From NCBI RefSeq assembly GCF_000455365.1, contig NZ_HG315687.1, forward strand, positions 1 through 64,000: a stretch of 64,000 bases of DNA, read 5' to 3'. The notes below the pieces were generated by a model. It ran no database searches. It was not told where the DNA came from and saw only the letters and a program-made list of their open reading frames with translations. This DNA is from Halopiger djelfimassiliensis. GTDB lineage: Archaea > Halobacteriota > Halobacteria > Halobacteriales > Natrialbaceae. The position numbers and the translations under genes were made by a program. This document shows, one piece after another, positions 25,498-28,435 of this stretch. The number at the start of each line of letters is the position of its first letter. Positions within the stretch are counted from its first letter, which is position 1.

Positions 25498-26250
25498 TCA
25501 GGACCGATCCATCGACGCCGGCACGGTCGGCACAAGCGGCGCGTTCGACGTGAGTAGATACGTCGACTTGCGGACCGCACCCTTGGCGTACTGGACCGTA
25601 CTCTTGTGGATCGGGGTCCGTTTGCCCCGGATCTGCGTTCGGCCCTCGAGGATGGCCTCGACGAGTTCGTCGCCGTCGATGTCGGCCTTGGTCGGGTTCT
25701 CGGCGTCCGGCGTCACGAGGATCTCGGTGTAGGCCTTGCCGACGTTGGGCAGGTAGTGGGCGTCGCTCGCGCCGATCTCCGGATAGCCACGTCTGCGGGC
25801 GAACGTCCGGGCCCGCCGGTTTCGATAGCCGGTAAAGAGCATCGAGTTGTAGGTCTCGATCGCGTCGGCGTCCTCGATATGGCGTTTCCGGACGCCGTGG
25901 CGGCTGCGCTGGAAGGGATGTGGAACGATCGCGATACCGCCGAGTTTCCGGACGGCCGCGACGGTTTCCATGAACGGCTGGCCGGGATCGGGTCGTTCCT
26001 CGACGCCGATCGCAAGCAAGTGGCCGTGTCGCGTCGAGACTTCGACGCCGGGGATGCCGACGAGGCCGTAGTCCGGGGCGAGGTCGGCGGCCCGGATCGA
26101 TTCGCCGATCTCGTCGTGGTCGGTGATGACGACGCCGTCGAGGCCGATGTCGGCTGCATGTTCCAGAATGAGTTCGATCGGCTCGTGCCCGTCGTAGGAG
26201 TCGTCGGAGTGAACGTGAAAATCGATTGCAAACGGAATGTGAGTCGTCAT
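25498..26250 (-). CDS. PHP-domain phosphoesterase
   Basis: This 250-residue PHP protein has the metal-site segments DFHVHSDDSYDG near residue 10, VVITDHDEIGE near 39, GIPGVEVSTRHGH near 70, IVPHPFQRSRHG near 108 and IGASDAHYLPNVG near 160. The clustering of His and Asp is typical of active members. It is of the shorter PHP-only type, like polymerase-linked and histidinol-phosphatase-like enzymes. It is convergent with the DHH nuclease gene, 15 bp apart. The N-terminal extension in the longer frame is not protein-like, so I use the ATG at 26250. Confidence 0.85.
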   Translation of the reverse strand: MTTHIPFAIDFHVHSDDSYDGHEPIELILEHAADIGLDGVVITDHDEIGESIRAADLAPDYGLVGIPGVEVSTRHGHLLAIGVEERPDPGQPFMETVAAVRKLGGIAIVPHPFQRSRHGVRKRHIEDADAIETYNSMLFTGYRNRRARTFARRRGYPEIGASDAHYLPNVGKAYTEILVTPDAENPTKADIDGDELVEAILEGRTQIRGKRTPIHKSTVQYAKGAVRKSTYLLTSNAPLVPTVPASMDRS

Positions 26251-26556
26251 AGGAGTCAGCGGGGTGGGTACCCTCAATAGCTCGTTGGGCCGCATAAACG
26301 CTGTGCTGCGCGCCGAGTCACGCGAACCCACCAATTCAATATAGCATTATAAGATTTATCGATGGAGTAGTCGGCCGTTTCGAAACCGGATTCTCCAGTC
26401 GGTGTTCCGGACCAACGCGCCGCTGGTTGCTCGAGCGGGCGCTAAAACGCGAACACGCAGGAAGACCAGTTACGATTCCGACCGGCCTCACGATGAAAAC
26501 GTGAAAGCCACCATCACTGCGACCGAACGACCGGAATCGTCGCCCGCCAGCGGGTA
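26251..26556. other. Intergenic region, partly AT-rich
   Basis: This stretch holds AT-rich tracts (26325-26365, with tataagattt-like strings) and a TATA-like cataaac (26294-26300) that could serve the minus-strand PHP gene. I see no gene. The two iron-regulator boxes begin just to the right. Confidence 0.4.
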
Positions 26557-26607
26557 TTAGGTTGGCCTAAAATTCGGCAGGTTTATCATGTTTTAGGTCA
26601 CCCTAAA
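26557..26607 (+). promoter_or_regulatory. Two DtxR/Idr-type boxes flanking a TATA element
   Basis: TTAGGTTGGCCTAA (26557-26570) and TTTAGGTCACCCTAAA (26592-26607) are palindromes of the TTAGG-N4-CCTAA type bound by DtxR-family metal repressors, including haloarchaeal Idr proteins. A TATA-like gtttatca (26581-26588) lies between them, so a bound repressor would block TBP/TFB. The centres are 36 bp apart, close to 3.5 helical turns. The next gene downstream is DUF7551. Such boxes usually mark iron-repressed genes. Confidence 0.75.
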
Positions 26608-26709
26608 CAATACGAAGCGACGGACCGCGATCCAGTGTCGGCGGAGTCGAGCGGGCCGGCGTCTGGCTGTAGAACGCGGTCACGTACGGGATCAACGCCC
26701 AGAGAACCA

Positions 26710-27630
26710 ATGGTCGGAACGACGCTCCGAGAGATACGCCACCGCATCGAACAGTTGGCAACCGACGACGGGGACTACTACGTCATCTGTGGCCGGACGG
26801 GGGAGTTTCCCGTTCCGGTCGCCGGCAAACGGTTTCCGACGCGAAAAGCCGCGGCCGACGCCGCTCGAGCGACCGAGCAGTACCGCGCCGCGCTCAGACG
26901 ATACGATCCGCAGGCACCCTTTTACGAGCCGATCGTCTGCCAGCGACACTCCGTGACGGAGGCGGCGGACCTTCGGGACGCCTCGGTCCGGAAACCGGAC
27001 CCCGAACGATCCCACCGTTCACACGGCTCGATCGGGACCTCGTCCGAAGACGACACCGACGCCGACGACGAGAGCCCGTTGATCAGCTTCTGTCACGACG
27101 TCTCGGGGGCCGTTTTCGAGGCCCTTTCGGCTCGGGATCACGCGGCCGCCGAAACGGCGATCATGGACACCTATCTCGCCGCCGCGGAGGCTGTCACCGA
27201 CCGGGATGCGCTCTGTCTGGTGTTGCTCGAGACGATGGCGACGGAGCTCGGCCGGCACCTCACCGCGGACGAGCGGGGCCGCCTTCTGCGGACGGCCGCG
27301 GCGAACCTCTCGCCGGTTACCCGCGGCGACGATCCGGTCGAGGGGAGCCTGTCGCACCTGCGAACGCTCTCGTTAATCGGCGAATACGACGTGACGCGGT
27401 CGACAGCCGACGCCGCCTGGACCGTCTCCCTTCACGGGTACGCCATCGAAAGCGACGGGCGACGGTTCCCGATGCTCCCGATCGGAATCGATATGCTGCG
27501 GCGAACGGCGGGTTCGAGCCAGTCGCTCGGCGTCGCGGACGTCACGGCGCTTGGGGACGGCGATTGGGAACTCGTCGTGACAGACGGCGACTCGGAACCG
27601 GGCAGTCTGGTCTGTACGGGGAGGATATAA
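26710..27630 (+). CDS. DUF7551-like haloarchaeal protein behind iron boxes
   Basis: This 306-residue protein starts with a conserved region (VGTTLREIRHRIEQLATDDG, then YYVICGRTGEFPVPVAGKRF and EQYRAALRRYDPQAPFYEPIVC) that I recall as DUF7551. The middle (residues 145-220) is helical with ISFCHDVSGAVFEALSARDH; the end is beta-rich. No catalytic motif is visible. It is the first gene after the two metal-regulator boxes and is followed one base later by the DUF7260 gene, with gggagg as ribosome-binding site. A GTG at 26635 is an alternative start that would give 25 more residues. Confidence 0.7.
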   Translation: MVGTTLREIRHRIEQLATDDGDYYVICGRTGEFPVPVAGKRFPTRKAAADAARATEQYRAALRRYDPQAPFYEPIVCQRHSVTEAADLRDASVRKPDPERSHRSHGSIGTSSEDDTDADDESPLISFCHDVSGAVFEALSARDHAAAETAIMDTYLAAAEAVTDRDALCLVLLETMATELGRHLTADERGRLLRTAAANLSPVTRGDDPVEGSLSHLRTLSLIGEYDVTRSTADAAWTVSLHGYAIESDGRRFPMLPIGIDMLRRTAGSSQSLGVADVTALGDGDWELVVTDGDSEPGSLVCTGRI

Positions 27631-27631
27631 C

Positions 27632-28435
27632 ATGGGTGAGACGGCGATCCATCGCGCACTCGAGTGTGTCGACGCCGAACGCGACGCGGTCGCGGAACGC
27701 GAGGCCGGGTTCGAGGCGTTCGTACAGCGCGTTCGGGACGTCCCGACGGAAGCGGCCGCGCCCGTCGGAAGCCAGTCGGCGACGCAGGTCGCCTCGACGC
27801 CGGCACAGAACGTCGTCTCGGTCCCGAATACCTCGCCGACCCCGACGCCGTCTGCGGACGGCTGTGAGACCGTTCGGCGGGCCTTCGCGGAAACGATACT
27901 CCCACACAGTGATGACGACGACAAATCGCTCGTCGAAACCATTGCGGCGGAACTGACCGAGGACATCGCCGTCGCGCTCGCATCGGACGCCCAGTGGACG
28001 CCGGCGCTCAAGGAGACCGTCCTCCAGAAGGCGACCGAGCGCCGACGGCAAGCCGACCTGCTGCAGGAGACCCTCGAGACCGAAACGCAAACGCTGGCGG
28101 ACGCGGCCGAGGAGATCGACGAGATCAGCGCGTGGCTCCAGACGACCGCCGAGGAGTCGCTGTTCGACTACGGGTTCGAGGAACTCCGGACGAAACACGA
28201 CCGCCTCGAGACGTTCCGAACGCGTCTGGAAACGCTGCTCGAGGAGCGACAGCGACAGTTTTCCGAGTCGACGAACCGGTACGGTCGGGGCGGGACATCG
28301 TATCGGACGCTGGTGTCGTACCTGTACACCGACGGAACCACGCAGTATCCGGTCCTCTCGACCGGCGTTCGGTTATACGAGATCTGTGGCTCCTGCCAGC
28401 GAACGGTTCGAACGCATCTCACGCGACGCGTCTAA
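27632..28435 (+). CDS. DUF7260-like coiled-coil protein
   Basis: This 267-residue protein (start MGETAIHRALECVDAERDAV) matches a haloarchaeal family I recall as DUF7260. Predicted helices dominate: a heptad-like stretch around residues 130-215 (LLQETLETETQTLADAAEEIDEI and later RLETFRTRLETLLEERQ, split here by a short gap) suggests a long coiled coil. The middle has a Pro/Thr linker. The C-terminus has a pair of cysteines (ICGSCQRT). It is almost fused to the DUF7551 gene (1-bp gap), so the two products probably act together. Function unknown. Confidence 0.65.
   Translation: MGETAIHRALECVDAERDAVAEREAGFEAFVQRVRDVPTEAAAPVGSQSATQVASTPAQNVVSVPNTSPTPTPSADGCETVRRAFAETILPHSDDDDKSLVETIAAELTEDIAVALASDAQWTPALKETVLQKATERRRQADLLQETLETETQTLADAAEEIDEISAWLQTTAEESLFDYGFEELRTKHDRLETFRTRLETLLEERQRQFSESTNRYGRGGTSYRTLVSYLYTDGTTQYPVLSTGVRLYEICGSCQRTVRTHLTRRV

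Follow-up and report, generated by a model that had tools for sequence, protein, structure and literature searches.

Paired iron boxes flank the promoter of a DUF7551–DUF7260 gene pair, a probable part of haloarchaeal iron acquisition

The gene pair and its promoter

We analyzed a 64,000-nt stretch of DNA from Halopiger djelfimassiliensis (contig NZ_HG315687.1, positions 1 to 64,000; hereafter the window), focusing on two adjacent genes and the promoter region in front of them. The original prediction had described two TTAGG-N4-CCTAA palindromes on both sides of a TATA element, and the analysis bore this out. The DtxR/IdeR-type iron box 1 (TTAGGTTGGCCTAA, 26557–26570) and iron box 2 (TTAGGTCACCCTAA, 26593–26606), neither assigned to a strand, are both exact palindromes, match the core consensus TTAGGNNNNCCTAA exactly and start 36 bp apart. 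Box 1, which was found upstream of homologues too, lies just upstream of a BRE-like CGGCAGG (26575–26581) and a TATA-like TTTATCAT (26582–26589); these elements (26575–26589, plus strand) sit between the boxes and read towards the gene pair. This flanking of the core promoter by the boxes was conserved. The TTCGRTGGACTTAT block between the boxes was kept in relatives, as was TTCGRTGGA-CTTAT, which represents BRE and TATA reading towards the pair.

Judging by the spacing from the TATA element, transcription of the pair would start at about 26608–26612, and box 2 would occupy approximately −17 to −4. A 5′ untranslated region of about 100 nt follows (26607–26709, plus strand). Many distant relatives had no such region, and their box 2 ended 1–2 bp ahead of the ATG, a layout that points to leaderless transcripts. 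No conserved leader peptide or small reading frame was found in relatives between box 2 and the ATG at 26710. Besides these two boxes, the 64-kb window contained no TTAGG-N4-CCTAA site even at 2 mismatches (4.5 expected by chance). Given this chance expectation, single near-matches mean little, but a pair of perfect copies at 36-bp spacing is meaningful.

Gene 1 (26710–27630, plus strand) encodes a 306-aa protein, and gene 2 (27632–28435, plus strand) encodes a 267-aa DUF7260 protein whose ATG at 27632 starts 1 nt after the gene 1 stop; together they make up a two-gene operon. The start of gene 1 at 26710 was supported by a block conserved in relatives and by a GGAGG-like sequence before it in most of them. 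Pfam assigned DUF7552 to residues 5–79 (window 26722–26946) and DUF7551 to residues 124–302 (window 27079–27615) of the gene 1 protein; the boxes had been predicted to precede DUF7551 and DUF7260, both of which are present, but the DUF7552 domain had been overlooked. Residues C27, C128, H129, E137, E148, Y155, E160 and C169 of the gene 1 protein are near-invariant. The C-terminus of the DUF7260 protein carries C252-x2-C255...H262, and this CxxC...H pattern was kept in most members. AlphaFold2 returned confident models for the gene 1 protein (pLDDT 87.7) and the gene 2 protein (pLDDT 89.2), the latter predicted as an all-helical coiled coil. Neither protein had a hydrophobic stretch suggesting a membrane segment, and Pfam detected no FhuF or SIP domain and no DNA-binding or signalling domain in them.

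The iron regulon and conservation of the boxes

The original prediction had interpreted the boxes as iron-regulator sites, and this interpretation gained support from the motif, which is identical to the redefined DtxR/IdeR consensus, a 14-bp core (PMC8464063), and from the other boxes of the genome, which precede iron-uptake and siderophore genes. The whole genome (3.78 Mb) contained 21 exact TTAGG-N4-CCTAA sites, compared with 2 for the pattern read backwards as a control. Genes behind the other boxes encode six Peripla_BP_2 proteins, a FecCD permease, an SBP_bac_6 protein, an ABC/TOBE_2 ATPase and a DUF5059-halocyanin protein. Class-III aminotransferase and PLP decarboxylase genes were likewise located behind a 36-bp double box, and such a pair would typify siderophore synthesis of the diaminobutyrate type. 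Of the two DtxR-family regulators encoded in the genome, one contains a FeoA domain and is presumably SirR-like, and the other is short and presumably Idr-like. The DUF7551–DUF7260 pair itself stands alone in this genome, not beside uptake genes, with PHP, DUF5783 and NifU genes as its neighbours; a related flavoprotein gene follows a boxed SBP gene elsewhere in the genome.

Further boxed genes were recorded as separate observations. The box of the DUF5059 protein, which has a copper-binding halocyanin domain, lies just before the gene (G000:C2:935273, L058) and possibly reflects a copper-for-iron swap in electron transport. Unexpected regulon members, all with exact iron boxes before them, were glycosyltransferase genes (RGP and GT2 families) and a Gluconate_2-dh3/GMC oxidoreductase pair (G000:C1:775891-785412, L052).

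The original prediction had made its reading depend on the presence of boxes before homologues. All 31 of the closest homologues fetched had an exact box upstream, always 36 bp apart where there were two, and in more distant homologues (about 36–45% identical) the box pair was often present at 34–36 bp. Among 123 full-length DUF7552-DUF7551 genes, an exact box lay within 520 bp upstream in 76, and in 33 more a same-strand box lay no more than 4.5 kb upstream, although a box kilobases away is by itself no proof of a single transcript. A box, either direct or heading a same-strand gene row, was found for 109/123 homologues, none was found for 11, and 3 loci did not extend far enough to decide; these are related and so not independent sequences, though many genera and several families were covered. 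The chance expectation from genome density was about 0.3% per homologue.

Seven of the 11 unboxed homologues (L175, L178, L182, L184, L186, L187 and L198) form one well-supported clade, in which an FAD-protein gene follows directly and all conserved Cys/His residues are kept. Because this clade has the flavoprotein gene instead of a box, the biochemical role of the protein may be wider than iron. Among the other unboxed homologues, L201 and L226 had a box farther up the same strand, at 5.1 and 6.6 kb, respectively. Boxes were also present before DUF7552-DUF7260 two-gene forms and some lone DUF7260 genes.

Across all fetched loci, 74/77 distinct box pairs less than 200 bp apart were spaced at 34–36 bp. 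The double box occurred in 77/116 haloarchaeal genomes, and no reversed pattern was among the matches listed. This frequency and the 34–36 bp spacing therefore indicate that the TATA sandwich is a class-wide promoter type, which this operon exemplifies. Another kind of double box recurs in one genus (G175:C1:1031532, G144:C3:439940, G151:C1:999168, G196:C1:1275453); its boxes are spaced at 29 bp around a conserved TGTCGATGTT spacer, and it differs from the 34–36 bp class.

Genomic context and distribution

We surveyed 18-kb neighbourhoods of DUF7551 genes, mostly from other families, using 20 stretches of the same genomes as controls. Siderophore-binding, FecCD or flavoprotein genes were located within about 9 kb of 28/62 DUF7551 loci compared with 0/20 controls (Fisher, 7e-5). 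Similarly, an iron box was present in 53/62 DUF7551 neighbourhoods compared with 1/20 control stretches. In Halobacterium hubeiense and Halobellus limi, the pair lies together with HEAT-repeat, flavoprotein, iron permease, ATPase and binding-protein genes; the Halosolutus gelatinilyticus locus contains binding proteins, a flavoprotein and DUF7551; and in Haladaptatus halobius the pair is followed by a DtxR-family regulator and then by a ferric transporter, DpsA and a ferritin-like gene. Pyr_redox_2 matches in the flavoproteins fell mainly in the FAD parts and no CxxC was conserved; these features suggest short relatives of thioredoxin reductase that lack the NADPH domain.

DUF7551 (PF24420) was detected in 142/242 haloarchaeal genomes sampled and DUF7260 (PF23921) in 201/242, and a phylum-wide sample gave no matches to these families outside the haloarchaeal order. 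The flavoprotein was present in 223/242 genomes, so its genome-level co-occurrence with the DUF families is uninformative. The DUF domains were not found fused to flavoprotein or uptake genes. The literature searched, a set that most earlier haloarchaeal regulon studies lie outside, contained no mention of DUF7552, DUF7551 or DUF7260.

Three further genes were observed around these loci. The HEAT-repeat protein (L164:250-1257 and 15 relatives), which recurs in haloarchaeal siderophore operons, has conserved Arg/Lys residues and a zinc-ribbon-like C-terminal end. Some genomes have, next to the pair, a tiny protein that is first basic and then acidic and has a W..YL..F core (L164:9715-9870, L169:9181, L270:10719-10904, L163:7838-7999); we rejected it as a regular part of the system, as it lay beside the pair after DUF7260 in two loci only. 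In Haloferax larsenii, a DUF7260 gene (L166:7743-8594) with no iron box comes after a nosZ-nosD-ATPase-permease (copper) row.

Proposed function and relation to known systems

The predicted DUF7551 structure consists, in order, of five helices, two strands, a helix and two strands. C128-H129 and C169 fall close to the beginnings of helices 1 and 3, respectively, and E160 falls at the end of helix 2; in an antiparallel bundle, these residues might come together at one and the same end. The Foldseek search of DUF7551 gave BcsD, H-NOX and TRAPP subunits as the nearest structures, with a weak best match (E 6e-3, probability 0.99, TM by target 0.46), and the top matches were mostly several families of this one fold. 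The predicted order of elements in DUF7551 weakly resembles that of the H-NOX/BcsD/TRAPP fold, and its sequence and conserved residues differ. No sequence-profile match of DUF7551 to any known family of this fold was obtained, its profile matched no PDB sequence, and a loose-threshold Pfam search for remote relatives gave no coherent match. The fold search with DUF7260 returned coiled-coil noise only.

Taken together, the pair appears to have a DtxR-regulated promoter whose boxes are almost certainly functional sites. The pair very probably belongs to haloarchaeal iron acquisition, as an apparently undescribed component, because these switches and genes recur inside iron-uptake operons across haloarchaea; the earlier suggestion that it may belong to an iron-limitation response is well supported by box conservation and the siderophore-uptake operon context. 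The absence of uptake-gene neighbours in its own genome is the main gap in the siderophore argument. The best explanation overall, which we consider on balance probable, is an iron-regulated, siderophore-linked pair with a tentative part in iron release; within it, the case for regulation is strong, that for the siderophore link is good and the mechanism is speculative.

When iron is plentiful, Fe2+-loaded DtxR-family repressor dimers would very probably occupy the two boxes, enclose the BRE/TATA between them and keep out TBP/TFB and RNA polymerase, and under iron shortage the promoter would be freed and the two-gene operon made. The products would quite likely serve as soluble intracellular accessories of ferri-siderophore uptake, acting downstream of a FecB/FecC/FecD-type transporter. 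Tentatively, the DUF7552-DUF7551 protein, with Cys27, Cys128-His129, Cys169 and its glutamates, might hold iron, a ferri-siderophore or a thiol and cooperate with the FAD flavoprotein encoded alongside it in operons, whereby iron would be released from the siderophore, and the coiled-coil DUF7260 protein, which carries CxxC...H at its C-terminus, might be its partner or scaffold. A Cys/His protein of H-NOX/TRAPP-like fold, DUF7260 and the short FAD flavoprotein could then make up an undescribed intracellular iron-release module under the double-box promoter type, a proposal in which we place low confidence.

Among the alternatives, the one that survives best, unlikely but with an appreciable chance, regards DUF7551 as a ligand-binding sensor of siderophore or iron, built on the H-NOX/BcsD/TRAPP-like fold, which together with the coiled-coil DUF7260 tunes the transporter or gene expression and releases no iron. 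The top Foldseek matches come mostly from a fold family whose members include sensors, and the small DUF7552 domain is found with DUF7260 alone as well; however, the fold match is weak (E 6e-3), neither a DNA-binding nor a signalling domain was detected by Pfam, and the steady flavoprotein pairing points to redox work.

Less probable still, the pair could be a passenger of the iron regulon, serving another low-iron need (thiol-redox balance, another metal or the sparing of iron enzymes) with no direct siderophore step. Its repeated position inside siderophore-uptake operons of several families argues against this, whereas the unboxed clade with the flavoprotein and without uptake genes, the DUF7260 relative beside the copper-dependent nos operon of Haloferax larsenii and the solitary position of the pair in its own genome are consistent with it.

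A role in heme handling, in which a diverged, H-NOX-like DUF7551 would bind heme and either move or sense it when iron is short, is very improbable. H-NOX structures are among the Foldseek matches, and axial ligation could come from the conserved His and Cys. However, the proximal heme ligand of H-NOX is a His in the helix before strand 1, and DUF7551 has no conserved His in that helix, as judged by the order of elements and not by residue superposition.

Finally, the readings that the palindromes arose by chance or serve the divergent PHP-domain gene on their other side (25498–26334) were rejected as having a negligible probability, since the boxes accompany the DUF7551 gene from genus to genus and directly adjoin its start codon in distant relatives, and the BRE/TATA orientation points to the pair.

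Compared with known systems, the pair and its promoter share with DtxR/IdeR boxes and the haloarchaeal Idr/SirR/TroR (FerR) iron regulon the common 14-bp core (PMC8464063), the kinds of target and the DtxR-family genes. They differ from these in that the targets are two DUF families of unstudied function and that two boxes, at a fixed 34–36 bp, flank the TATA element, where the known layout has a single overlapping site of 19 bp. A ferR signal lies before the fhu genes of Haloferax volcanii (PMC11349517). FhuBCD/FecBCD-type siderophore operons of haloarchaea have an SBP, a FecCD permease and an ATPase with like boxes, and many copies of the pair, from many other genera, lie inside such operons; DUF7552-DUF7551, DUF7260, the HEAT-repeat protein and the short FAD flavoproteins are the additions here. 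We know of no described siderophore operon with these components. FhuF- or SIP-type ferri-siderophore reductases would resemble the pair in the proposed cytosolic iron release and in conserved cysteines, whereas the likely electron carrier here is a separate FAD protein. To our knowledge, the release of iron from imported siderophores in archaea is largely unstudied.

These results give two widespread, named but unstudied protein families a testable place in the iron regulon and often in siderophore operons. The strict promoter layout, with two DtxR boxes around the TATA element in two thirds of the genomes sampled, is usable to predict iron-regulated genes.
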